Assembly: GCF_022808715.1 (NCBI RefSeq) | Contig: NZ_JAKZKX010000027.1 | Coordinates: 1 to 45,086 of the forward strand | DNA from: Fundidesulfovibrio agrisoli | GTDB taxonomy: Bacteria; Desulfobacterota; Desulfovibrionia; Desulfovibrionales; Desulfovibrionaceae | Direction: 5' to 3' | DNA: 45,086 bases | In this document: one piece after another, positions 15,788 to 30,503 of the stretch | Layout of the letters: every line of letters starts with the position of its first letter | How positions within the stretch are numbered: position 1 is the stretch's first letter | Made by a program: the position numbers and the translations under genes | The notes under the pieces: model-generated | Seen by the model: only the letters and a program-made list of their open reading frames with translations | The model's database searches: none | What the model was told of the DNA's origin: nothing

Positions 15788-16100
15788 ATGGCAAAGGCAA
15801 CGTGGACCACCCCAACGGAGGTGAAGACCATTGGGCCAGCATCAGGACCATACCGGCGGATGACCGCGACGACCCCTCGCCTCGGCAACCGGGCGCACAG
15901 CCCACAAGGCCAGGCAAACCAGACGGAGTGACCGTCACCGGATCGCGGACCATCCATAGCGGACCGGTAAAGCCATGAAGATCCCGCCGTGGAAGGCAGC
16001 GGCGGGGCGCCACGAGGAAGGGATGCGATCCCTGAAGCGGCAGCGAATGCCTCCGAATCCAACGCCTCGTCCCCACCCAAGGGACGGGGCTTTTTTTATG
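15788..16100 (+). ncRNA. Candidate structured leader or small RNA upstream of the two-component operon
   Basis: This stretch lies between a plausible promoter and a strong terminator and has no supported gene. It can form hairpins at 15983-16006 (CCCGCCG/CGGCGGG) and 16020-16032 (GGGAT/ATCCC), followed by the terminator stem. It could be a riboswitch-type leader controlling read-through into the kinase gene 130 nt downstream, or an independent RNA. A 47-codon frame starts at 15788 without a ribosome-binding site. I could not match it to a known riboswitch class. Confidence 0.35.
16064..16097 (+). terminator. Strong intrinsic terminator ahead of the kinase gene
   Basis: GCCTCGTCCC pairs with GGGACGGGGC (one G-U pair) over a 7-nt loop, followed by seven T. 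It lies 135 nt before the histidine kinase start, with no other gene upstream on this strand for about 800 nt. Confidence 0.88.
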
Positions 16101-16231: not shown

Positions 16232-17698
16232 ATGAGCACCCTCGACGCGCTTCTTTCCCGGCTTCCGCACCTGACCATCCGCCAGAAGGTGCTGGTGGGC
16301 GTGGTGATCCCCGTACTGCTCTTCACCGTGGTGGGCGTGGTCTCCTACAACTACCTCATCCGCCTGGAGGCCACCCTGACGCTCATGGAGGGCGCGGACG
16401 ACCTCTCCAACACCATCCTCGAGATCAGGCGCTACGAAAAGAACTACATGCTCTACGGCCACGACGAGGACTTCGACGAGGCCCAGAACTACACGGCCCA
16501 GGCCCGCAAGACCCTGGCCGAAATGGCCGCCATCGCCCGCGACGGGCGCGCCAAGAACGCCATGGCCCGGCTGGCCGTCGCCCTGGACGGCTACCAGTCC
16601 CTGAGCATGTCGCTGCACCCGGTCAAGCCGGGCACGGAAATCTCCCAGGCTCGGGAGGAGCTGCGCCAGACCGGCAAGGACATGGTGGACCTCTCCCTGG
16701 ACATCAAGAACTCTGAACGCAACCGCACCTTCCGCCTGGTGGCGGACCTCAAGCGCCAGCTGTTCGTCTCCGGCCTGCTCATCACGCTCTCGGGCATCGT
16801 GCTGGCCTTCCTGCTGGTGCGCAAGATCCTGCGGGCCCTGGGCACCATCACCAGGGCGACCACCGAGGTGGGGCAGGGCAACTTCAAAACCCTGGACGTG
16901 CCCCGCTCAGGCGACGAGACCCAACTCGTGCTGGAGGCCTTCAACCGCATGACCCGCGAGTTGGAGCGCCGCCAAGACCAGCTCATCCAGGAGAAGAAGC
17001 TCTCCTCCCTGGGCGTGCTCACCTCGGGCATCGCCCACCAGCTCAACAACCCGCTGAACAACATCTCCACCTCCTGCCAGATCCTCATCGAGGAGCAGAC
17101 CGAGTGCGACCCGGCCTTCGCGGCCAAGATGCTCGGGAACATCCAGCAGGAGGTCATCCGCGCCCGCGACATCGTGAAGGGCCTGCTGGAGTTCGCCCGC
17201 GCCAAGGATTTCAGCCTCAAGCCCGCCAGCCTCGACGAGGTGGTGGCCAAGGCCTTCAGGCTCGTCTCCTCCCAGGTTCCGGCGGGCATCACGCTGAGCA
17301 AGTCCATCCCCGAGGGGCTGGTGGTGGATCTCGACGCCGCCCGCATGCAGGAGGTGTTCATCAACCTGCTGCTCAACGCCGCCCAGGCCATCCCCGCGCC
17401 GCCGGGGGCCATCACCGTCTCCGCCGAGGCCGACGCTGCGGACAACACGGCCGTGATCGCCGTGGAGGATACGGGCGTGGGCATCCCCGAGGAGGACCTG
17501 GGCAAGGTTTTCGACCCCTTCTACACCACCAAGGAGGTGGGCAAGGGCACCGGGCTGGGGCTTTCCATCGTGTTCGGCATCATCGAGAAGCACAAGGGCT
17601 CCATCGCGGCCGAGCGCAACCCGGGCAAGGGGGCGCGCTTCGTGATCCGCCTGCCGCTGCACGGCGGGGCCAAGAACTCTGAGCAGGCGGGCAGATGA
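16232..17698 (+). CDS. NtrB/ZraS-type membrane sensor histidine kinase
   Basis: The 488-residue protein has transmembrane segments at about 18-43 and 176-199. They enclose a helical periplasmic sensor domain, followed by HAMP and a HisKA with SGIAHQLNNPLNN (His269) of the NtrB class. The HATPase has N, G1 (DTGVGIP) and G2 (GKGTGLGLS) boxes. It should autophosphorylate and pass phosphate to the adjacent sigma-54 regulator, whose ATG overlaps its stop by 4 nt. An earlier in-frame ATG at 16181 is possible; I chose 16232 for its AGGATCAGG context. The signal sensed is unknown. A receiver-Lon protein encoded 3 kb away is a possible second target (inference). Confidence 0.9.
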   Translation: MSTLDALLSRLPHLTIRQKVLVGVVIPVLLFTVVGVVSYNYLIRLEATLTLMEGADDLSNTILEIRRYEKNYMLYGHDEDFDEAQNYTAQARKTLAEMAAIARDGRAKNAMARLAVALDGYQSLSMSLHPVKPGTEISQAREELRQTGKDMVDLSLDIKNSERNRTFRLVADLKRQLFVSGLLITLSGIVLAFLLVRKILRALGTITRATTEVGQGNFKTLDVPRSGDETQLVLEAFNRMTRELERRQDQLIQEKKLSSLGVLTSGIAHQLNNPLNNISTSCQILIEEQTECDPAFAAKMLGNIQQEVIRARDIVKGLLEFARAKDFSLKPASLDEVVAKAFRLVSSQVPAGITLSKSIPEGLVVDLDAARMQEVFINLLLNAAQAIPAPPGAITVSAEADAADNTAVIAVEDTGVGIPEEDLGKVFDPFYTTKEVGKGTGLGLSIVFGIIEKHKGSIAAERNPGKGARFVIRLPLHGGAKNSEQAGR

Positions 17699-19050
17699 AG
17701 GGCGGCACGATCCTCATCGTGGACGACGAGTCCATAGCCGTTGAGAACCTCACGCACATCCTCACGCGCGAGGGCTACGCCACGGCGTCCGCCGCCAGCG
17801 GCGAGGAGGCCGTGGCCCTGCTGGACAACCGCGAGTTCGACCTGGTGCTCACCGACCTGCGCATGAAGGACCTGGACGGCCTGGCCGTGCTGGCCGAGTG
17901 CAAGCGCCTCTGGCCGGACACCGAGGTGGTGGTCATGACCGGGCACGCCACCGTGTCCACCGCCGTGGAGGCCATGCGCCTGGGGGCCTGCCACTACCTG
18001 ACCAAGCCCTACAGCCTGGCCGAGGTGCGCGCCACCGTGGCCGAGGCCATGGTCAAGCGCCGCCTGCGCCAGGAGGTTGCCCGCCTCTCCCGCCAGGTGG
18101 CGGATTTGGGCAGCGGCCCGCTGATAATCGGAGAGAGCCCGGCCATCCAGGCCCTGCGCGACAACATCCACCACATCGCGCCCACGGACTCCACCGTGCT
18201 CATCCTGGGCGAAACCGGCACCGGCAAGGAGCTTGTGGCCCGGGCCATCCACGAGGCCAGCCCGCGCGGGGGCGGCCGCTTCCTGGCCATCAACTGCGGG
18301 GCCTTCAACGAGGATCTGCTGGCCAACGAACTTTTCGGGCACGAGAAGGGGGCCTTCTCCGGGGCCTCCACGCTCAAGAAGGGGCTCCTGGAGGTGGCGG
18401 GGGAGGGCACGCTCTTCCTGGACGAGATCGGCGAGATGTCGCTGACCATGCAGGTGCGCCTGCTGCGCGTCTTGCAGGAGCGGCGCTTCTTCCGCGTGGG
18501 CGGCACCCAGGAGATAGACGTGAGCGCGCGCATCCTGGCCGCCACCAACAAGGACCTCAAGACAGAGGTGGACCACGGCATGTTCCGGGCCGACCTCTAC
18601 TACCGGCTCAACGTCATCACCCTGCGCGTGCCCCCGCTGTCGGAGAGACGGCAGGACATCCCGCTGCTGGCCGGGTACTTCATCGCCAAATACGCGCCCG
18701 CCATGGGCAAGACGGTCTCAGGGGTGTCGTCCGAGGCGCTCAGGCACCTGATGGCCTATGACTACCCCGGCAACATCCGCGAGCTCGAGAACATCGTGCA
18801 GCGAGCGGTGATTATGGCCAAGGGCGAAAAGCTGGAACCGGCGGATTTGCCGCAGGATCTGAGGGGCGAGGCCCCGGCCCTGGTGAAGCACGAAGGCCCG
18901 GAGCTCATCACGCTCGAAGAGCTGGAGAGAAGGCACATCGAGGCCGTGCTGGCCCACGAAGGCGGGAACAAGACCAAAGCCGCCGAGATTCTGGGGATCG
19001 ATCGGGTGTCGCTGTGGCGGAAGGTGAAGAGATATGGGTTGGGGGAGTGA
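17695..19050 (+). CDS. Sigma-54-dependent response regulator (NtrC family)
   Basis: The 451-residue protein has a receiver domain (about 3-120, phospho-acceptor Asp54 in LTDLRM), an AAA+ sigma-54 activation domain (GETGTGKE Walker A, FLDEIGEM Walker B) and a C-terminal Fis-type helix-turn-helix (NKTKAAEILGIDRVSLWRKVKR). The sigma-54 contact loop reads GAFSGA at 219-224 instead of GAFTGA. It overlaps the kinase gene by 4 nt, indicating translational coupling. It should oligomerise when phosphorylated and drive -24/-12 promoters. The promoter at 22930 with upstream palindromes is the nearest candidate target (inference). No terminator follows before the convergent hicB. Confidence 0.93.
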   Translation: MKGGTILIVDDESIAVENLTHILTREGYATASAASGEEAVALLDNREFDLVLTDLRMKDLDGLAVLAECKRLWPDTEVVVMTGHATVSTAVEAMRLGACHYLTKPYSLAEVRATVAEAMVKRRLRQEVARLSRQVADLGSGPLIIGESPAIQALRDNIHHIAPTDSTVLILGETGTGKELVARAIHEASPRGGGRFLAINCGAFNEDLLANELFGHEKGAFSGASTLKKGLLEVAGEGTLFLDEIGEMSLTMQVRLLRVLQERRFFRVGGTQEIDVSARILAATNKDLKTEVDHGMFRADLYYRLNVITLRVPPLSERRQDIPLLAGYFIAKYAPAMGKTVSGVSSEALRHLMAYDYPGNIRELENIVQRAVIMAKGEKLEPADLPQDLRGEAPALVKHEGPELITLEELERRHIEAVLAHEGGNKTKAAEILGIDRVSLWRKVKRYGLGE

Positions 19051-19081: not shown

Positions 19082-19480
19082 TCAAGGGTGTTTTCTCTCC
19101 GCAAGAGCCTCCGCCGCCTGAACCAGAAAGCCCGACCTGGTCAGGCCCAGCTTCTTCGCGGCCGCGTCGATTCGCTCCAGTCGGAACCTGGGAACGCTGA
19201 TGTTCACCCGCACCGGTTCCTTATCCAAAAAGGCGAGGTCAAGCTCGACAAAAGCCAGAACGCCTCCCTCGGCTTCGGCCAAGGCCAACACCGCACCAGG
19301 CGCGCTCGGCTCCGGGGCCTTGTCCGCGTCGAACAGAAAGGCTTCCACAGCCTCCTGGACGTTTGAAAGCGCTTCCTCAAGCGTGTCGCCGGAAGTGAAG
19401 CAGCCGGGCAGGTCCGGCACGGTGACACCGTAGGCAACGCCGTCGTCGGTATGCAGGATTACGGGATAGTGTTTGCGCAT
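19082..19480 (-). CDS. hicB: HicB-family antitoxin
   Basis: The ATG at 19480 follows AGGAGAAACC. The 132-residue protein has an N-terminal HicB-like partial RNase H fold (YPVILHTDDGVAYGVTVPDLPGCFTSGDT) and a C-terminal ribbon-helix-helix (VNISVPRFRLERIDAAAKKLGLTRSGFLVQAA). By family knowledge it neutralises HicA and binds its own promoter. It follows the toxin gene by 12 nt, the usual hicA-hicB order. The palindrome at the hicA start is a likely operator. Confidence 0.92.
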   Translation of the reverse strand: MRKHYPVILHTDDGVAYGVTVPDLPGCFTSGDTLEEALSNVQEAVEAFLFDADKAPEPSAPGAVLALAEAEGGVLAFVELDLAFLDKEPVRVNISVPRFRLERIDAAAKKLGLTRSGFLVQAAEALAERKHP

Positions 19481-19492
19481 GTATGGTTTCTC

Positions 19493-19684
19493 CTATCGGG
19501 GCGGCCAGGGCCAACCAGCCTGCCGGAAGATATTGCGCAGGGTACCGGCGGGGATGTCCTTGCGGGGATGTGGTACAACCACCCGTTGCCCGTCGGGTCG
19601 CCCTAAAACATGGTGGCTGCCGTTTACGCGTAGCAGGGTGAATCCGCACTGTTCAAGGCGTTGGATGATTTCCCTGCTCTCCAT
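19493..19684 (-). CDS. hicA: HicA-family mRNA interferase toxin
   Basis: The 63-residue product MESREIIQRLEQCGFTLLRV... has the HicA dsRBD-like fold and the catalytic-His segment NGSHHVL. It should cut mRNA when released from HicB. A GTG at 19699 is an alternative start in phase, but the ATG at 19684 fits HicA length. Neither has a Shine-Dalgarno. The ATG lies only 6 nt after a -10 element, so the message is probably leaderless. hicB follows directly. Confidence 0.9.
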   Translation of the reverse strand: MESREIIQRLEQCGFTLLRVNGSHHVLGRPDGQRVVVPHPRKDIPAGTLRNIFRQAGWPWPPR

Positions 19685-19749: not shown

Positions 19750-19865
19750 CTACACCCCCGCTAACGCCAACGCCTCCAGCGCGCCCATCACGAACACCAC
19801 CTTCACCCCTGACAGCTCCTCCGCGCTCATGGCCTCCACCTCGGGCCTGTTGCCCTCGGGCAGAA
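19750..19865 (-). pseudogene. Duplicated 3' end of the lon-type gene (about 38 codons)
   Basis: These 116 nt match 20710-20825, the end of the receiver-Lon gene, with seven differences and no gaps (about 94%). They keep the same frame and TAG stop and encode [20 protein letters not shown] and the rest of the tail. Similarity stops abruptly beyond 19865. No start codon or protease domain is attached, so it is a remnant. It forms a direct repeat flanking the MazEF-like cassette. The rest of 19866-20030 shows no gene. Confidence 0.85.
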
Positions 19866-20030
19866 GCAGCAGCACTGGTTGACGCCCCCATCCGCCTGCA
19901 TTATACAAAATTATCATCCCTGCCGTTGCATCACCGCACAATGACCGGATGAGCGGCATCGGCGGCGGGATGCAAGCGATCCCGCTCGGGATTCTCACGT
20001 GAATCCATCGACAGGAGCCGGAGGTAACCC

Positions 20031-20276
20031 ATGACCATGGAAGTCGTTCTGAAACGCTGGGGCAACAGCATCGGCCTGCGTATCCCCAAGGGAATCGCGG
20101 ACGCGGCGGGGTTCAAGGCCGACGACGCCGTGAGCATCGACACGTCGGTTGACGGGCTGACCATCAAAAAGGCCCGGCGGAAATACGACCTTGCGGAGCT
20201 GCTCAGCAAGGTGACGCCTGAGAACAGGCACGACGCCCTCGATATGGGCGGCCAAAAGGGCAGAGAGCTGCTGTGA
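20031..20276 (+). CDS. MazE/AbrB-type antitoxin
   Basis: GGAGGTAACCC precedes the ATG at 20031. The 81-residue protein has the swapped-hairpin AbrB/MazE DNA-binding fold (VVLKRWGNSIGLRIPKGIADAAGFKADDAVSID), then a C-terminal tail likely to bind the toxin. It should repress its own operon and neutralise the downstream MazF-like toxin. Its stop overlaps the toxin start by 4 nt. The pair lies between two copies of the lon 3' end, suggesting acquisition as a cassette. Confidence 0.9.
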   Translation: MTMEVVLKRWGNSIGLRIPKGIADAAGFKADDAVSIDTSVDGLTIKKARRKYDLAELLSKVTPENRHDALDMGGQKGRELL

Positions 20277-20611
20277 GCGGGAAAACGCCTGACAGGGGCG
20301 ATTACGTGCACCTCGATTTCGACCCCCAGGCCGGCCACGAGCAGGCGGGGGCGCGATTCGGGCTTGTGATGTCCCCGCGCGCGTTCAACGAAGTCACCGG
20401 GTTCGCCTTCGTGGCTCCGCTCACGAGCCAGGTGAAAGGCTATCCCTTCGAAGTCGAAATCCCGTCCGGCGAATGCTGCTACGGCGTCGTTCTGGTCGAT
20501 CAGACCAAAAGCCTGGATTGGCGCGCAAGGGGCCTGAAAGTGAAGGGCCGGGCATCGAACGCCCTTGTGGAAGAAGCCAGCGCGAAACTTGCCGCCATCC
20601 TGGGCTGGTAG
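20273..20611 (+). CDS. MazF/PemK-type endoribonuclease toxin
   Basis: A GTG start at 20273 overlaps the antitoxin stop (GTGA), implying translational coupling. The 112-residue protein shows the MazF pattern: GDYVHLDFDPQAGHEQAGAR near the N-terminus, the strand FAFVAPLTSQVKGYPFEVEI, and VVLVDQTKSLDWRARG with the conserved DQ-K-DW-R residues. It is predicted to cleave specific mRNA sequences when free of antitoxin. It converges on the receiver-Lon gene, 98 nt away; that gap holds a small GATGG/CCATC stem and no clear terminator. Confidence 0.92.
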   Translation: MSGKTPDRGDYVHLDFDPQAGHEQAGARFGLVMSPRAFNEVTGFAFVAPLTSQVKGYPFEVEIPSGECCYGVVLVDQTKSLDWRARGLKVKGRASNALVEEASAKLAAILGW

Positions 20612-20709: not shown

Positions 20710-22728
20710 CTACACCCCAGCCAACTCCAGCGCCTCCAGCGCGCCCTTAACGAACACCACCTCCACCCCTGACAGCTCCTCCGCGCTCATGGCCTCCACC
20801 TCGGGCCTGTTGCCCTCGGGCAGAATCACCCGCGCGGCCCCGGCGCGTGCGGCCGCCAGAATCTTCTCCCTGATCCCCCCTACGGGCAGCACCTGCCCGG
20901 TCAGCGTGATCTCCCCGGTCATGGCCACGTCGCGCCTGAGCGCCCGGCCCGTATAGAGCGAGGCCAGGGCCGTGGCCAGGGTCACGCCCGCCGAGCTGCC
21001 CTCCTTGGGGATGGACCCGGCGGGGATGTGCACGTGCAGATCCTCGCAGAGGAAGCACTCCCCGTCGATGCCCAGCTCCGCCGCCCTGGAGCGCACCAGG
21101 CTGTGCGCGGTCCGGGCCGACTCGCAGAGCACCTCGCCCAGCGACCCGGTCATGGTGAGGTTGCCCTGGCCCTTCATGCGGATGGCCTCCACGAAGATGA
21201 TCTCCCCGCCGTGGTCGGCGTAGACCAGCCCCGTGGCCACGCCCACACGCGGCTCGCCCCCGGCGGCCTCGCGGGCGTATTTCCTCGGCCCGAGCAGTCC
21301 GGGGATGAGGTCCTTGCCGACAGTGACGGCCGCTGCGGCGGCGCCGTCCGGCCCTGCCTCCAGGCGCAGCTTGGCCAGCTTGCGGCAGGCCCGGCCCAGC
21401 TCGCGGTCCAGGTTGCGCACGCCCGCCTCGCGCGTGTAGCCGTCCACCACCGCGCCCACGGCGTCGGCGGTGAACTCCGGGAAGGGGTGGGTCAGGCCGT
21501 GCTCGCGCAACTGCTTGGGCAGCAGGTGGCGCAGGCCGATCTGCACCTTTTCGGCGGTGGTGTAGCCCTGGAAGGGCACCAGCTCCAGGCGGTCCAGCAG
21601 GGGGCCGGAGAGTTCGCGCACGTCGTTGACCGTGGCGATGAACAGCACCTGGGAGAGGTCGAAGGGCACCTCCAGGTAGTTGTCCACGAACTGGCTGTTC
21701 TGCTCGGGGTCGAGCATTTCGAGGAAGACGGCGGCCGGATCGCCCCGGAAGTCCTTGCCGATCTTGTCCAGCTCGTCGAGCATGAACACGGGGTTGCGCA
21801 CGCCCAGGCGGTTGATGGACTGCAGCACCCGGCCCGGCAGCGCGCCCACGTAAGTGCGCCGGTGGCCGCGCAGTTCGGCCTCGTCGCGCAGGCCCGCCAG
21901 GGAGATGCGGTGGAACTTGCGCCCCAGGGCCTGGGCGATGGCCTGGCCCACGGAGGTCTTGCCCGTGCCCGGGGGGCCTGAGAAGCAGAGCACCGGGCTG
22001 CGGAACACGGTGGGGGCCGCCTTCTCCCGCGCGATGCGGGCCACGGTGGCGCGCAGCTCGTCCAGGTTCACGGGCTTGGCCAGGTAGTACACCGCGCCCT
22101 GGCGCATGGCCTGCACCGCGGTGTCCACGGTGGCGAAGCCGGTGACCATCATCACCTGCGTGTTGGGCGAAATCTTGCGGGCTTCCTCTAAGAGCTGCAT
22201 GCCGTCCATGCGGTCCATCTTGAGGTCCGTGACGATCAGGTCGAACTCCCAGCGCCCGATCTCCTCCAGGGCCTCCAGCCCGTTGCCCGCGCCGCGCACG
22301 CGGTAGCCTTCCTTCTTGAGCACATACTCGAGGTTGGTGCGGGCGATGTCCTCGTCGTCCACCACCAGGATGTGGAAATCGCGCGAGGCCCGAAGCGCCC
22401 GCGAGGCCAGGTACTCAAGCACACGCTCCTTCACCTGCCCAAGGCCGTAGTGGCGTTCGGCCAGCACTTCCCCGGCGGCGGCCAGGTCCAGCTTGTCCTG
22501 CGTGAGGGCGTTCCAGGGCAGGCCCAGGAGGAAGTCCAGGTAGCCCAGGCCCACGGAGTATTCCGCCACGGAGGGGTCGGTCTTGGCCAGGCGGTCCAGC
22601 TCGCGCAGGGCGGCCTCGCTGGCGTGGGCGGGCAGGTCCGGGCTCTTGGCCCGCGCTCGCAACGCCTCCAGGTCGGAGGTGGGCGATTCGGGAGTTTTCC
22701 CCTCTGTGCGCTTCTGGAAGAAGATCAT
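20710..22728 (-). CDS. Lon-family ATP-dependent protease with an inserted response-regulator receiver domain
   Basis: The ATG at 22728 with GAGGTG upstream gives 672 residues. Order: short Lon-like helical stretch (about 50-110: [18 protein letters not shown]...[16 protein letters not shown]); complete receiver domain (118-236; acid pair Asp124/125, phospho-Asp168, Thr196, Lys218); AAA+ (Walker A GPPGTGKT 251-258, Walker B FMLDEL); then the Lon proteolytic domain with Ser579 in PKEGSSAG and Lys622 in GGIREK. The long substrate-binding N-domain of ordinary LonA is mostly missing, and the receiver sits just before the AAA+ module. Phosphorylation could thus gate proteolysis (inference). The gene is divergent from the TSUP operon and is flanked by a duplicate of its own 3' end. 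A GTG at 22749 is an alternative start. Confidence 0.93.
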
Positions 22729-22784: not shown

Positions 22785-22878
22785 GCCGTTGCAGCGTGTA
22801 ACATTATGCAACGGCTGTTGTGATGCGCAACACGCCGTGCAGCCCCCTTGGGCCGAAAGGCGTTGCACGATGCAACGC
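22785..22878. promoter_or_regulatory. Three GTTGCA/TGCAAC-type palindromes in the divergent promoter region
   Basis: Site 1: GCCGTTGCA (22785-22793) and TGCAACGGC (22807-22815). Site 2: TGTTG/CAACA (22816-22832). Site 3: GCGTTGCA-CGA-TGCAACGC (22860-22878). Their centres lie roughly 155, 131 and 86 nt before the inferred start of the sigma-54-like promoter, typical of upstream activator sites. They could equally control the divergent receiver-Lon gene. Confidence 0.65.
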
Positions 22879-22929: not shown

Positions 22930-22944
22930 TGGCACGCATCTTGG
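22930..22944 (+). promoter_or_regulatory. Sigma-54-like -24/-12 promoter for the TSUP operon
   Basis: TGGCAC-GCATC-TTGG fits the consensus TGGCAC-N5-TTGC except for G instead of C in the last position of the -12 box. The predicted start near 22955 leaves a leader of about 24 nt before the ATG at 22979, with an AACGAGGAGG ribosome-binding site in between. Confidence 0.6.
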
Positions 22945-22978
22945 ACTATGGGGGCAACGAAACGAGGAGGACACGATC

Positions 22979-23140
22979 ATGGCCAGCATCAGGGAACGCA
23001 TTGAAACCGTGTTTGCAGCCCTGGCCTTCGCGGAGCAGGACCTGGACCGCGAAGCCCTCGAGATCATGGCCGCGCAGCGTGGCCGCAAGGCTTCGGCCGC
23101 AACCAAGCGCCCCGACAACCGCCCGAGGGCGAGGGTCTAG
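22979..23140 (+). CDS. Small protein of unknown function (53 aa)
   Basis: GAGGAGGACACGATC precedes the ATG at 22979. The product starts MASIRERIETVFAALAFAEQ; its first half is a predicted amphipathic helix and its end (GRKASAATKRPDNRPRARV) is basic and probably disordered. It has no signal peptide, cysteine or known motif. As first gene behind the sigma-54-like promoter and 6 nt before the next gene, it is probably translated. I do not recognise the family. Confidence 0.65.
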   Translation: MASIRERIETVFAALAFAEQDLDREALEIMAAQRGRKASAATKRPDNRPRARV

Positions 23141-23146
23141 CCAGTC

Positions 23147-23686
23147 ATGGCGAGGCGCGTCAGCGACAAGCCCGAAGGGGCTGTCCGCATCCGGCGGCCC
23201 GGCCGCATCCGGGAGTTCCTGGAGCAGACCGGCCAGGCCGCCGGGTTGGCCGAATACGGCCTCTCCGGCCCTGACCTTGGCCTCACCCCCACCGGCGGGG
23301 AGAGCAAGAAGATCGTGGCCGTGTCCACCGAAGCGGAATTTTCTCCGGCGCTCATCCGTCAGGCCCTGGGTGTGGCCGGCAGGCTGGGCACGGAAGTGGT
23401 GGGACTGAGCGTCGGCAGGCCCGACGCGGACAAGAACGACGAGCAGGCGGCCAAGCGCCGTGGGCTCTTCGAGATGCGGGCCGAGAAGTCCGCTGGGGAT
23501 TTCGCCCGCGAGGCGCGCCAGGCCGGGGTCGTTTTCCGGCACGTGCTGCGCTTCGGCAGGGCCTCTGATGTGGTGGAGCAGGAATGCGGCAGGCTTCGGC
23601 GGGTCGAATTCGTGCTCGCGGTGAAGGAGCAGCGTGGCAGGGACGGATTCCATGTGAGCATGCCCCTGTTCGAGGTGATCGGGTAG
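23147..23686 (+). CDS. Unknown protein with a degenerate universal-stress-protein-like core
   Basis: The 179-residue protein has a basic N-terminus (MARRVSDKPEGAVRIRRPGR). It then shows alternating strands and helices (KKIVAVSTEAEFSPALIRQALGVAGRLGTEVVGLSVGR, then FAREARQAGVVFRHVLRFGRASDVVEQE) recalling the USP fold without its ATP-binding glycine signature. It begins 6 nt after the 53-aa gene and is followed by the small membrane protein, so it belongs to the same operon. No TM segment or signal is visible. Similarity to USP is a fold-level impression only. Confidence 0.65.
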   Translation: MARRVSDKPEGAVRIRRPGRIREFLEQTGQAAGLAEYGLSGPDLGLTPTGGESKKIVAVSTEAEFSPALIRQALGVAGRLGTEVVGLSVGRPDADKNDEQAAKRRGLFEMRAEKSAGDFAREARQAGVVFRHVLRFGRASDVVEQECGRLRRVEFVLAVKEQRGRDGFHVSMPLFEVIG

Positions 23687-23741
23687 GGGTGGGGTTGGAC
23701 CGCCCTTGTTTGTGAAAATTTTAGCAACAAGGAGACTCAGA

Positions 23742-24041
23742 ATGCACGCCAACAAGAAGAAGCCCTACGGCAAGCTCGTGGCATACGGCATCGGCAGCTG
23801 CGCGTTGTACACCGCCGTGTACATGTTACAGGACGTGATCATGGCCAACTTCGCCCGCGGCGGCATCTATACCGCGCTGCCCATCGCCACCGTGTTCCTG
23901 TTCTCCTGGATCCATGGAACCTTCGCCGGCACCCTCTGGCAGGTGCTGGGCATCGACGCCGTGAAGAAGGCCCCGGCCCAGGCCACCGCCCAGGCCCCCG
24001 CCCGCAAGGACACCCGCCCCCGCGCGGCCGTCAACGCCTAA
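23742..24041 (+). CDS. Small inner-membrane protein of the TSUP operon
   Basis: ACAAGGAGAC precedes the ATG at 23742. The 99-residue product has two predicted membrane helices (about 12-35 and 43-66: LVAYGIGSCALYTAVYML and ALPIATVFLFSWIHGTF) and a hydrophilic Ala/Pro/Lys-rich tail. It lies 28 nt before the permease gene and may be its accessory subunit (inference from position). I do not recognise the family. Confidence 0.7.
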   Translation: MHANKKKPYGKLVAYGIGSCALYTAVYMLQDVIMANFARGGIYTALPIATVFLFSWIHGTFAGTLWQVLGIDAVKKAPAQATAQAPARKDTRPRAAVNA

Positions 24042-24069
24042 CCAGCCCAGAACCGCAAGGAGAACGACA

Positions 24070-25131
24070 ATGGATATGCTCAACGAAGCCACCAAATTCA
24101 TCACGCTCGATCCCGCCGGGATCAGCTTCCTGTTCATCGTGGGCTTCATCGGCGGCCTGGTCAGCGGCTTCATCGGCTCCGGCGGTGCCTTCGTGCTCAC
24201 CCCGGGCATGATGAGCCTGGGCGTGCCCGGCACCGTGGCCGTGGCCTCCAACATGTGCCACAAGTTCCCCAAGGCCCTGGTGGGCTCCATCAAGCGCTAC
24301 CGCTACGGCCAGGTGGACATCAAGCTGGGCCTGTTCATGGCCGCCTTCGCGGGCATCGGCGTGCAGATCGGCATCAAGATCCAGAATTTCATCCTGAACG
24401 CCTGGGGCCAGGCCGGCTCCAACCTGTATGTCAGCGTCTCCTTCGTGCTGGTGCTGGTGGTGGTGGGCGGCATCGTGATGATCGACGCCCTCAAGTCCTC
24501 CAAGAACTCCTGCGGCGTCGAGCAGACCTGCTCCCTGGCGCTCAGGCTCCAGAAGATCGAGCTGTGGCCCATGGTCAGCTTCAAGCGCGCCAACCTGCGC
24601 ATCTCCCTGTGGTTCCTGCTGCCCGTGGGCCTGGCCACCGGCCTGCTGGCCGCCACCATCGCCGTGGGCGGCTTCGTGGGCGTGCCCGGCATGATCTACA
24701 TCCTGGGCGCCACCAGCCTGGTCGCCTCCGCCACGGAGCTGGTCATCGCCTTCGTCATGGGCCTGGCCGGCTCCATCAACTGGGCCATGCAGGGCATGGT
24801 GGACATCCGCCTCACGCTTATCATCCTGGCCGGGTCGCTCTTGGGCGTGCAGCTCGGCGCCATCGGCACCACCTACGTCAAGGAGCACATGATCAAGATC
24901 GTCATGGGCACCATCATGCTCATCGTGGCCGTGTCCCGCGCGCTGGCCATGCCCGAGTACCTGGGCAAGCTGGGCCTCATGGACGTGAGCGACGCCACCC
25001 TGGCCGTGCTCAGCAAGGTCAGCTTCGGGTTCATGGTCGTCTCCCTGGTGGTGGGCGCGGTCATCATCCTGGGCAGCATGCTCAAGGCCAAGAAGGCCAT
25101 GTCGCCCACGAGCGTGGAACAGGAAGCATAA
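24070..25131 (+). CDS. TauE/SafE (TSUP)-family anion permease
   Basis: CAAGGAGAAC precedes the ATG at 24070. The 353-residue polytopic membrane protein shows the two TSUP repeats with glycine-rich motifs (GFIGGLVSGFIGSGGAFVLTP and, in the second half, GLLAATIAVGGFVGVPGMIY). TSUP members move sulfite, sulfonates or other small anions; in a sulfate reducer sulfite or another sulfur oxyanion is likely (inference). It follows three small genes behind the sigma-54-like promoter and is closed by a terminator. Confidence 0.9.
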   Translation: MDMLNEATKFITLDPAGISFLFIVGFIGGLVSGFIGSGGAFVLTPGMMSLGVPGTVAVASNMCHKFPKALVGSIKRYRYGQVDIKLGLFMAAFAGIGVQIGIKIQNFILNAWGQAGSNLYVSVSFVLVLVVVGGIVMIDALKSSKNSCGVEQTCSLALRLQKIELWPMVSFKRANLRISLWFLLPVGLATGLLAATIAVGGFVGVPGMIYILGATSLVASATELVIAFVMGLAGSINWAMQGMVDIRLTLIILAGSLLGVQLGAIGTTYVKEHMIKIVMGTIMLIVAVSRALAMPEYLGKLGLMDVSDATLAVLSKVSFGFMVVSLVVGAVIILGSMLKAKKAMSPTSVEQEA

Positions 25132-25173
25132 CACTCCGCCAAGGCACCGGCGCGCGCAGCGCTTTGGATGAAC

Positions 25174-25217
25174 AGTCAGGCCCCTGGTATGCGCAATGCT
25201 TCGGGCCTGACTTTTTC
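25174..25217 (+). terminator. Intrinsic terminator after the TSUP permease
   Basis: Perfect 10-bp arms AGTCAGGCCC and GGGCCTGACT enclose a 19-nt loop and are followed by TTTT. It lies 43 nt after the permease stop, before the stress-protein gene. Confidence 0.85.
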
Positions 25218-25281
25218 TTGCGCCCGGCCCGGGCGGATGATTTGTAGAAGAACACGAACCGTTAGCACCCGGAGGTCCATC

Positions 25282-26133
25282 ATGCCCATCAAGCGCCTGC
25301 TCGTGAGTGTGGACGAATCCCAGCCCAGCATGCACGCCCTGAAGGCGGCCCTCGACCTGGCCGGAACGCATGGGGCCTCACTGACGGCGGTGGCCGTGGC
25401 CCCGCCCTACCAGGGCGACCTGAGGCTGGTGGGCGTGGGGGACATCTCCCGCGTGCTGCGCCAGCCCTGCGAGCAGGCCCTGGCCGCGGCATCGCGGGAG
25501 GCCTCCTTGCGGGGCCTCACCATCGCAACCGTCTGCGAGAGCGGCGAGCCGGGCGAGGTCATCGCGGATCTGGCCGACTCCATGCGCGCCGACCTGGTGG
25601 TCATGGGGCGGCGCAACACCTCCACCATGGGCCGTCTGCTGCTGGGCAGCGTCACCGCCCGGACCATCGGCTTCTCCCATACCGACGTGCTCATCGTGCC
25701 CGAGGGCGCCGCCGTGAACCTGCGCCGCCTGGTCCTGGCCACGGACGGCTCCCGCTACGCCCTGGCCGCCGCCGAGAAGGCCCTGGCCGTGGGCGCGGAG
25801 CTCAACTCCCTGGTGGAGGTGGTCTCCGTGATGGACGTGCCCAACGAGTACCTGGCCCTGGCCCCCCAGGCCGCGCAGGAGCTGGCCGTATCCACCAAGG
25901 GTTTTGTGGGCGAGGTGCTGGAGATGGCCAAGGCCAAAGGGGTCGCCGCCAAGGGCAAGGTGCTCGAGGGCAACGCGCCGGAGGAGATCCTCAAGTACGC
26001 CGAGGAGGGCGGCAGCGGGACCATCGTCATCGCTTCCCACGGGCGCACCGGGCTGCGCAGGCTGCTCATGGGCGGCGTGGTGGAGTGGATCGTGGCGCAC
26101 TCCGGCCTGCCGGTCTGGATCACCAAGAGCTGA
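25282..26133 (+). CDS. Tandem-domain universal stress protein
   Basis: CCGGAGGTCC precedes the ATG at 25282. The 283-residue protein holds two USP domains, about 1-140 (KRLLVSVDESQPSMHALKAA through MGRRNTSTMGRLLLGSV) and 148-283 (RRLVLATDGSRYALAAAEKA through SHGRTGLRRLLMGGV). The second keeps the glycine-rich nucleotide-binding signature well; the first is altered. It is cytoplasmic with no signal peptide. Its own promoter is implied by the terminator just upstream, but no consensus was found. A role in stress or anion metabolism next to the permease is inferred. Confidence 0.9.
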   Translation: MPIKRLLVSVDESQPSMHALKAALDLAGTHGASLTAVAVAPPYQGDLRLVGVGDISRVLRQPCEQALAAASREASLRGLTIATVCESGEPGEVIADLADSMRADLVVMGRRNTSTMGRLLLGSVTARTIGFSHTDVLIVPEGAAVNLRRLVLATDGSRYALAAAEKALAVGAELNSLVEVVSVMDVPNEYLALAPQAAQELAVSTKGFVGEVLEMAKAKGVAAKGKVLEGNAPEEILKYAEEGGSGTIVIASHGRTGLRRLLMGGVVEWIVAHSGLPVWITKS

Positions 26134-28712: not shown

Positions 28713-30503
28713 TCAGCTGGCCGCCGCGCCCGGAACCGGCTCCTTGAGGCAGCCGTTGTCCGTCCAGCCGCGCAGCCGGTAGTAGTCCGCCAGCATGTAG
28801 TCCATCTCGTCCTTCGTCAGCTTCCGGCCGTCGGGCAGGGCCTCGCGGTGCAGCCTGGCGGGCAGGCGGTCGTGCTCCGGGGTCAGACCCTCGCGCAGGT
28901 TGAAGGCCCGCGCCATGTCGGACACTGCGGCCGCGCGGCGGCGCAGGGCGGGCTTGGAGGCGTCCAGCCCGGTGACCAGGTGCACGGCCTTTTCCAGCTC
29001 CTCCCAGGTGTAGAGGTCGCGGAAGAAGCGGCAGAGGATCAGGGTGTCGAAGATGGTCAGCCTGTCCTCGTAGTCGATGAGCATCTCGGCCTTGTTCTCC
29101 ACGGCGTCCGCCGGGATGAAGCCGGCCAGCTCGGGCTTGTAGAAGGTGGTGCGCAGGTGGCAGGCGCCCCGGTCCGAGGTGGCGTAGGCCAGGCCCATGC
29201 CCTTGAGCACGCGCGGATCGTACCCGGGGGGCTCCATGCCCTTGACGTGGATGGCCAGGTCCTCCAGGCCCCACTCTCGCGCGGCGTGCACGATGCCCTT
29301 GGCCAGCACGGCCCCGGCGCCACGGCGCGCGGCGATGTCCTCGATGAGGCGGGCGCAGGCGTCGGCGTCGCCGTAGCGCACGTCCATGTCCAGGCGGCCC
29401 CGCTCCACGGCCTCCATCACCAGGGCGCAGAGGTTGCCCGCGGTGATGGTGTCCATGCCCAGGCGGTCGCAGAGGTCGTTCAGGTAGACCACCTCGGTCA
29501 TGTCCGTAATCATGCACAGGCCGCCGAAGGCGTAGATGGTCTCGTATTCGGGGCCTTCCAGGGTCAGCCCGGCGTGGCGGCCGGTCTTGAGGGTGGCCAT
29601 GCGCCCGCAGGCCATGAAGCACTTCAGGCAGGCGTGGGGCTCCACCTGATGCTCCTTGTGGAAGCGCTCGCCCGAGAGGTTGGGCCAGTGCTCGCAGCTG
29701 CCCTGCGACCAGTACTTGGCCGGGAAGGCTCCGGCGGTGTTCATCAGGGCCACCATCATGGTGGTGCCCTGGGCCTTGTAGGCCTTCACGCCGGGCGACT
29801 GCACCCCGGCCTTGGCGAAGGCCGCCGCGTAGGAGCGCAGGCCCATGGGGTCCGCCGGGACGCGCTTGGCGTCGCCCTGGAACACGATGGCCTTGATCTT
29901 CTTCGAGCCCATGACCGCGCCAACGCCCGCCCTGCCGGCGCAGCGCCAGTGGTCGTTGGCGATCATGGCGAAGCTGACCAGGTTCTCGCCCGCCGGGCCG
30001 ATGACCACCGCGCCGGGCCTGCCGTAGCCCGGCTTGTCGATGGAGAAACGGGCCAGGGCCTCGTCTTCTGACTTGTAGGAGTCCATGCCCCAGAGCTCCG
30101 AGGCGTCGTGGAACTCGCAACCCCCGGGGTGGATGGTCAGGGCCAGGGGCGCGTCCGCCGCGCCCTCGATGACCACGGCGTCGAACCCTGCCGAGTCCAC
30201 AGCCTCGGGCGTCCTGCCGCCGGAGTAGGACTCGGCGTAGAAGCCCGTCTGGGGCGACTTGGTGAACACCCCGTAGCGGCTGCCGCCCCAGGCCGCGCCG
30301 CCGCAGAAGGGCCCGGCCGCGAAGATCAGCCTGTTCTCCGGCCCGAGGGGATCGGCCCCGGCGGGGTTGCGGGTGAGCAGGAGCCAGGTGGCCAGCCCCT
30401 TGCCCCCAAGGTAGGCCTCGTACACCTCGTCGGGGACGCTCTCGACGCTGAAACTGCGCGAGGTTGCGTCCACCACCAGGATCTTGCCGTGGAAACCGTG
30501 CAT
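28713..30503 (-). CDS. Aldehyde:ferredoxin oxidoreductase, tungsten-pterin family
   Basis: The 596-residue protein begins MHGFHGKILVVDATSRSFSV and carries family motifs such as GPFCGGAAWGGSRYGVFTKSP and AGRAGVGAVMGSKK (pterin binding). Cluster cysteines are CLKCFMAC (CX2CX3C, mid-protein) plus LILCRFFRD near the C-terminus. Members oxidise aldehydes to acids with ferredoxin. AGGGACG abuts the ATG at 30503, 7 nt after livF, so it is cotranscribed with the transporter. With gabT and gabD it gives a low-potential electron route for the semialdehyde (inference). It has no signal peptide and is cytoplasmic. Confidence 0.92.
   Translation of the reverse strand: MHGFHGKILVVDATSRSFSVESVPDEVYEAYLGGKGLATWLLLTRNPAGADPLGPENRLIFAAGPFCGGAAWGGSRYGVFTKSPQTGFYAESYSGGRTPEAVDSAGFDAVVIEGAADAPLALTIHPGGCEFHDASELWGMDSYKSEDEALARFSIDKPGYGRPGAVVIGPAGENLVSFAMIANDHWRCAGRAGVGAVMGSKKIKAIVFQGDAKRVPADPMGLRSYAAAFAKAGVQSPGVKAYKAQGTTMMVALMNTAGAFPAKYWSQGSCEHWPNLSGERFHKEHQVEPHACLKCFMACGRMATLKTGRHAGLTLEGPEYETIYAFGGLCMITDMTEVVYLNDLCDRLGMDTITAGNLCALVMEAVERGRLDMDVRYGDADACARLIEDIAARRGAGAVLAKGIVHAAREWGLEDLAIHVKGMEPPGYDPRVLKGMGLAYATSDRGACHLRTTFYKPELAGFIPADAVENKAEMLIDYEDRLTIFDTLILCRFFRDLYTWEELEKAVHLVTGLDASKPALRRRAAAVSDMARAFNLREGLTPEHDRLPARLHREALPDGRKLTKDEMDYMLADYYRLRGWTDNGCLKEPVPGAAAS

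Follow-up and report, generated by a model that had tools for sequence, protein, structure and literature searches.

A LonA-type protease with a receiver domain, predicted to lie inside its AAA+ core, as a candidate phosphorylation-gated output of a conserved three-gene signaling set in sulfate-reducing bacteria

Canonical LonA proteases choose their substrates through a large N-terminal domain (N-domain), and one gene of Fundidesulfovibrio agrisoli raises the question of how a Lon might be governed when that domain is missing and a response-regulator receiver is present in the same chain. The DNA analyzed, referred to here as the window, is a contig stretch of 45,086 nucleotides. The gene runs from 22728 to 20710 on the minus strand as a 672-amino-acid open reading frame that translated with zero internal stops; the same frame of the plus strand over 20710-22728 contains stops. 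We call its product RR-Lon (receiver-Lon protease). The original prediction was that the receiver had been inserted ahead of the AAA+ module of a Lon protease, and that the protein may be a two-component output acting by phosphorylation-gated degradation rather than by transcription. For Desulfovibrio vulgaris, Rajeev et al. (2011) reported a three-component system whose response regulator DVU3303 was characterized as "containing a lon protease"; they suggested that it may need phosphorylation for protease activity and placed orthologs in Thermodesulfovibrio, Thioalkalivibrio, and Dechloromonas (PMC3333781). The receiver and Lon arrangement, the three-gene system, and the suggested need for phosphorylation are thus already in print since 2011; the insertion site, the fixed linkers, the depth of conservation, the separation from housekeeping Lons, and a candidate operator are added here. 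Open-licence full texts mention DVU3303 only in PMC3333781, PMC10102598, and PMC4641369, and no biochemical study of a receiver-Lon protein (phosphotransfer, hexamer, or effect of phosphorylation) was found in the open-licence literature.

RR-Lon combines a LonA-type protease with an intact receiver and lacks the classical N-domain. Pfam matched Response_reg at residues 120-229 (2.6e-29), AAA at 247-383 (3.7e-21), Lon_lid at 409-457 (9.1e-16), and Lon_C at 470-668 (1.7e-67), and the NCBIfam model for endopeptidase La (TIGR00763) scored 625.6 bits against a cut-off of 608.05. Alignment to Bacillus subtilis Lon (3m6a) fell into two stretches, residues 14-113 with 3m6a 4-103 and residues 242-668 with 106-527. 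The gap between the two stretches is two residues in 3m6a and about 128 residues in RR-Lon. Residues 14-113 (22390..22689, minus strand), a neck of three predicted helices plus the first two AAA+ helices, are the sole remnant of the Lon N-terminal part. Also on the minus strand, the receiver occupies residues 119-237 (22018..22374) according to Pfam, the predicted model, and the receiver residues that are kept. The AAA+ core and lid follow at 242-457 (21358..22005; Walker A at 251-258, Walker B DE at 318-319) from Pfam, the 3m6a alignment, and the model, and the Lon protease domain at 470-668 (20725..21321) from Pfam and the 3m6a alignment.

The residues expected of both parents are in place. 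The receiver has D124, D125, D168, T196, and K218 and follows (beta-alpha)5 order over 119-237 in the model, while S579 and K622 form the Ser-Lys dyad of LonA (S16) proteases, with Walker A and B also present. Translation put all of these acid-pair, receiver, and dyad residues at the positions originally given for them. From sequence, D168 (codon 22225-22227) is the expected phospho-acceptor. The large N-domain had been described as mostly missing, and this was borne out; no Pfam model of a Lon N-domain matched RR-Lon at E up to 10 (HMMER filters drop most matches above 0.1), and the neck alone aligned to LonA. The N terminus bears an M-x-F-F motif in which F4 is nearly invariant among 68 family members. 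The annotated start is probably correct, and the near-invariance of F4 indicates absence of the N-domain rather than its loss by frameshift.

An AlphaFold2 monomer model of RR-Lon, built from the 68 family members, had a mean pLDDT of 87.3 and a pTM of 0.80. The elements in the model run from neck helices (19-27, 34-48, 55-69) to helices 82-92 and 97-114, then to the receiver (119-237), and then to the Walker A strand (246-250). Helices 82-114 we take, from Lon structures, to belong to the AAA+ module. The receiver is therefore flanked by AAA+ elements in the model, helix 97-114 before it and the Walker A strand after it, and is predicted to be nested in the AAA+ core instead of only preceding it. 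An intact receiver within the Lon chain was correctly foreseen; its placement ahead of the AAA+ module is not borne out by the model. Foldseek aligned the model to LonA protomers, with 3m6a at TMt 0.90 and rmsd 3.5, and with 4ypl_A, the top rank, at TMt 0.65 and rmsd 8.2, a disparity indicating that domain angles vary among protomers. Neck, AAA+, lid, and Ser-Lys protease all align with housekeeping LonA (TIGR00763; B. subtilis 3m6a, Meiothermus 4ypl, E. coli 6u5z). In contrast to these enzymes, RR-Lon has no N-domain and carries the receiver where helix 97-114 leads into the Walker A strand.

The linkers on both sides of the receiver have fixed lengths. From L107 to D125 there were 19 residues in 68 of 68 RR-Lons, and from K218 to G251 there were 34 in 67 of 68; this set comprised the window and 67 sequences picked below 88% identity out of 83 full-length named rows. 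Of 30 canonical Lons, 26 could be parsed, and these had a helix-to-Walker A spacing of 23. The partner NtrC-type regulators served as a control; their receiver-to-Walker A spacing was 66-70 residues in 36 of 37. Because the partner spacing is also near-constant, the constancy in RR-Lon is consistent with coupling of receiver and motor and does not prove it. Fixed linker length is not peculiar to RR-Lon, and the partner NtrC too is a receiver joined to an AAA+ module. The two proteins are alike in having the receiver joined to an AAA+ ATPase at near-fixed spacing, and their receivers are nearest kin. NtrC-type regulators differ in that their output is sigma-54 transcription, their receiver is N-terminal to the AAA+ fold, and they have no protease.

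The explanation we favor, with moderate confidence, is that degradation by RR-Lon is gated by phosphorylation beside an NtrC branch under one kinase. RR-Lon would itself be the two-component output, a processive ATP-dependent protease derived from a LonA that lost its large N-domain and gained a receiver in the loop that joins AAA+ helix 97-114 to the Walker A strand. The neighboring kinase would phosphorylate both Asp168 and the NtrC-type regulator, and the phosphorylated receiver, acting through the two fixed-length linkers, would alter assembly of the AAA+ ring or its ATPase cycle. Phosphorylation would presumably switch degradation on. In parallel, the regulator would bind GTTGC-N5-GCAAC and activate a sigma-54 promoter of the divergent genes for stress proteins and the transporter. 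What was computed is the domain anatomy, the conservation and linkage, the enrichment of the motif, and the predicted fold; phosphotransfer, gating, regulator binding, and substrates we infer. The more specific form, in which the receiver is part of the AAA+ motor and not an adaptor, aspartyl phosphorylation directly switches the ATP cycle, and one kinase has NtrC transcription and RR-Lon degradation as its outputs, we hold to be evenly balanced between right and wrong. If phosphorylation does gate RR-Lon, this would be a direct two-component output without transcription, in which a signal removes proteins, and a way of regulating Lon without its N-domain.

Another scenario, the main rival to motor switching, is that the receiver replaces the N-domain as a docking platform on an always active protease, with phosphorylation picking the substrate or adaptor, as RssB and CpdR do for ClpXP. 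The missing N-domain and the fact that the receiver is the sole added part of RR-Lon speak for docking. CpdR is a receiver adaptor whose phosphorylation controls degradation by ClpXP. For RssB, phosphorylation is required for high-affinity substrate binding and controls what an AAA+ protease degrades (PMC7226468). However, RssB and CpdR are separate adaptors for ClpXP, whereas RR-Lon is one chain and its protease is Lon, and a receiver nested in the AAA+ fold and flanked by fixed linkers suits mechanical coupling more than a tether. We regard docking as unlikely, although coupling and docking do not exclude each other. Phosphorylation is also a switch for Lon proteolysis at Ser654 in Xanthomonas citri, a likeness to the control proposed for RR-Lon; there, serine phosphorylation deactivates the enzyme, and the abstract mentions no receiver (PMC5784255).

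The arrangement recurs widely. A search with RR-Lon residues 60-290 at E up to 1e-38, in which part of the candidates were scored, found the same architecture in at least 34 of 99 relatives, at least 99 of 247 genomes of the class, and at least 45 of 345 genomes of the phylum (window's genome counted each time; the samples overlap). Nearly all frames were single and about 640-830 amino acids long; a few matches lay in short frames, such as those of 205-288 amino acids in genomes G221, G270, G409, and G571, perhaps at contig ends or breaks. The odd architecture and a nearby 124-bp duplication of the 3' end of the gene could have pointed to an artefact of the window's genome, with a receiver and a Lon fragment fused by chance or by misassembly. 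Recurrence in independent genomes led us to reject this possibility, whose probability we consider negligible. In 72,556 plasmid records there were zero RR-Lon matches at E 1e-25.

A DNA pattern from the family Walker region, which fits 63 of 75 known members, listed at least 116 stretches in a scan of named genomes. Among the 116 listed, 108 had a receiver in the same frame. The other eight were the canonical Lons of loci L103, L145, and L189, three cut at the locus start (L108, L114, L180), and two whose frame opens only after the receiver (L135, L164). The 108 receiver-bearing rows among the matches listed comprised 84 Thermodesulfobacteriota, 17 named "Deltaproteobacteria bacterium," 3 "Proteobacteria," and 4 unplaced; the filing of the 17 under Myxococcota is probably only an effect of naming. 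RR-Lon is a family widespread in its phylum. As a separate observation, L103 and L189, both from Armatimonadota, are receiver-less Lons with the RR-Lon DNA signature; they lie near one another on a long branch.

Conservation was read in three overlapping sets, which share genomes. In the first, all 75 of 75 rows, window included, have DDDTK as their receiver residues. In a set of 109 rows they read DDDTK in 107, EDDTK in 1, and were unreadable in 1 (frameshift plus a run of N), and in the set of 68 they read DDDTK in 67 and EDDTK in 1. The Ser/Lys dyad was present in 74 of 75 rows, the exception (L018) being cut before the Lys, and in 68 of 68; both residues were visible in 93 of 109, the remaining 16 frames reaching the locus end. 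Receivers that act as phosphate sinks exist elsewhere, and the RR-Lon receiver might likewise accept phosphate, or serve as a structural spacer, without controlling the protease. A sink would require neither a protease nor fixed linkers. The dyad is preserved in every row that is not cut, and the Lon gene of D. vulgaris shares the fitness phenotype of its kinase and regulator, as given in the study discussed below (PMC10102598). We judge the sink or spacer very improbable. One member, at L031 in genome G011, has FMLDDADK as its Walker B rather than the usual LDE, the sole such case in 75 rows; judged from this motif, its ATP hydrolysis could be altered.

Candidates for the remaining parts of the system lie beside the gene. 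A histidine kinase with HAMP, HisKA, and HATPase_c domains (Pfam) is encoded at 16232..17698 on the plus strand; its start codon is ambiguous, and the frame opens at 15989. It is the probable phosphodonor of RR-Lon. Its partner, an NtrC-type response regulator with receiver, sigma-54 activator, and Fis HTH domains (Pfam), is at 17695..19050 on the plus strand. On the other side of RR-Lon, five divergent genes at 22979..26133 (plus strand), probably one operon, encode a 53-amino-acid frame without a Pfam match (22979-23140), a weakly Usp-like protein below the Pfam cut-off (23147-23686), a 111-amino-acid protein (23706-24041), a TauE/SafE family transporter (24070-25131; Pfam), and a universal stress protein (25168-26133; Pfam).

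This neighborhood was compared with the RR-Lon loci of 40 other genomes. A kinase and NtrC pair lay at most 8 kb from RR-Lon in 36 of them, a divergent TauE transporter was present in 30 and a Usp match in 16, and at least one of the pair and the divergent TauE was found in 37. Among the loci lacking a qualifying pair, L214 has a kinase adjoining Lon where the contig ends, L239 combines an NtrC with a kinase of lower score (210 bits), and at L222 and L225 neither kinase nor NtrC was found in the flanks searched. In the class sample (n = 247), 92 genomes had both kinase and RR-Lon, 7 had RR-Lon alone, 14 had the kinase alone, and 134 had neither, a count that ignores kinship; the kinase was within 15 kb of RR-Lon in 84 of the 92. 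Because about 6 kinase candidates were scored per genome, some of the genomes with RR-Lon alone are false negatives, such as G043, in which a kinase is beside Lon. The 14 with the kinase alone are mostly near 300 bits, like the second copies in G136 and G064, and thus may hold paralogues.

These data fit the original view of RR-Lon as a two-component output in that the receiver sits on an intact LonA motor and protease, linked to a kinase and found across the phylum. The phrase "rather than transcription" was too sharp, because the locus also carries an NtrC-type transcriptional regulator, through which the same kinase probably has a second output. The locus resembles DVU3303-3304-3305 of D. 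vulgaris Hildenborough, in which a receiver and Lon in one protein adjoin a histidine kinase and an NtrC-type sigma-54 regulator with Usp-type and membrane protein genes nearby (PMC3333781); the window has Usp and TauE. Another paper lists DVU3305 as a sigma-54 regulator (PMC4641369). In contrast to the D. vulgaris arrangement, the window has its kinase-regulator pair pointing toward the Lon gene, from which two toxin-antitoxin modules separate it. At L210, Lon, kinase, and NtrC run in one direction with the 111-amino-acid, TauE, and Usp genes divergent, which is the published gene order of the DVU3303 system. RR-Lon is an old family that forms part of a conserved three-gene signaling set in sulfate-reducing bacteria.

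The AAA+ and protease portions of RR-Lons are separated from those of housekeeping Lons. In a tree made by a quick method, one branch with an SH-aLRT of 99 split 53 RR-Lons from 29 canonical Lons of the same phylum; the tree omits the long outgroup rows L103, L145, and L189, a copy of L003 (L261), and a cut row (L192), and two pairs of its RR-Lon rows are identical. When the long outgroup rows were included, RR-Lons were not one clade, but those rows formed long branches, against which the tree program warns. The window's genome itself also encodes two canonical Lons of 827 and 839 amino acids.

The receiver probably has another source. In a search of the whole genome, the receiver nearest to that of RR-Lon was the partner NtrC at 107.9 bits, followed by a match at 83.6 bits (the partner match runs into the Walker A region). 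With the receiver alone, the partner scored 107.8 bits with 57 of 117 residues identical, and the next best of 28 loci scored 84.8. In a receiver tree of 118 columns, 41 RR-Lon and 37 partner NtrC receivers grouped with a support of 93, which is below the starred level, and the group excluded 35 of the genome's 36 other receiver domains (two being duplicates), which came from 28 other loci out of 101 receiver matches. The RR-Lon receiver is probably a copy from the neighboring NtrC-type regulator, the simplest reading of this grouping, for which 118 columns are insufficient as proof.

Kinship of the two receivers also allows a negative feedback, in which RR-Lon would degrade the partner regulator through receiver-receiver pairing and so shut off the transcriptional branch. 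The partner receiver is the nearest to that of RR-Lon among the genome receivers compared, the two kinds of receiver cluster, and their genes are linked. However, in Trotter et al. (2023) the three D. vulgaris genes were detrimental at 6.25 mM chlorate: mutants lacking Lon, kinase, or regulator showed positive fitness, with pairwise cofitness all > 0.9 (PMC10102598). If RR-Lon removed the regulator, the opposite sign of fitness would be expected, so this feedback is disfavored and we consider it quite improbable; the shared sign suggests that RR-Lon acts with, not against, the regulator. The same study reported that the target DVU3299 is important under chlorate (PMC10102598). As the D. vulgaris system has mutants and a chlorate phenotype, the question of phosphorylation gating is within reach of ordinary biochemistry, and the insertion site and fixed linkers of RR-Lon define precise constructs for testing.

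The region upstream of RR-Lon contains three palindromes of the GTTGC-N5-GCAAC type within 22788..22876, an exact one at 22862-22876 and two with one mismatch each at 22817-22831 and 22788-22802. They are the probable operator of the NtrC-type regulator, as judged by their distribution. Upstream stretches of 760 nt from 41 loci, window included and 31.2 kb in total, contained 26 exact sites and 51 with one mismatch; the remaining 811 kb of these loci contained 3 and 24, respectively. Because the motif was read off the window, the remaining 40 loci are the test, five of them being of the same genus as the window; at least one site was upstream in 34 of these, and none was found there in 6. Exact sites occurred at 4 places in the 3.94 Mb genome, and a large palindrome regulon was unsupported; on the other side, sites with up to one mismatch numbered 99 per strand genome-wide vs 44 for a reversed control.

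A sigma-54-like -24/-12 site with one mismatch, TGGCACGCATCTTGGA, lies at 22930..22945 on the plus strand and faces the divergent operon. Over the whole window, sigma-54-like sites were not enriched. Such a site pointed away from RR-Lon in 16 of 41 loci, with a density of 0.59 vs 0.023 per kb. These intergenic sites are consistent with an NtrC-type regulator that would act on the promoter. The 53-amino-acid frame begins directly behind the site in the window, and similar frames were seen at 11 of the 40 other loci.

Some other genes near the locus seem to be bystanders. An aldehyde ferredoxin oxidoreductase (AFOR_N, AFOR_C) is encoded at 28713-30503, about 6 kb from RR-Lon. Since aor and the three-component system have a chlorate phenotype in common in D. 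vulgaris, a link between this gene and RR-Lon was considered; it was rejected, as the gene was near RR-Lon only in L200 among the 40 other loci (20-kb stretches). The toxin-antitoxin genes next to the locus seem not to belong to the system: MazE and MazF had matches at 0 of 40 other RR-Lon loci and HicB at 1 of 40. In the window, a HicA/HicB-type pair (19082-19684, minus strand; Pfam) lies beside a MazE/MazF-like pair (20031-20611, plus strand). A second copy of the final 124 bp of the RR-Lon gene (20710-20833) lies 960 bp away at 19750-19873, with 92% identity; the MazE/MazF-like pair sits between the two copies, as if the cassette had arrived with the duplication of the 3' end of RR-Lon.
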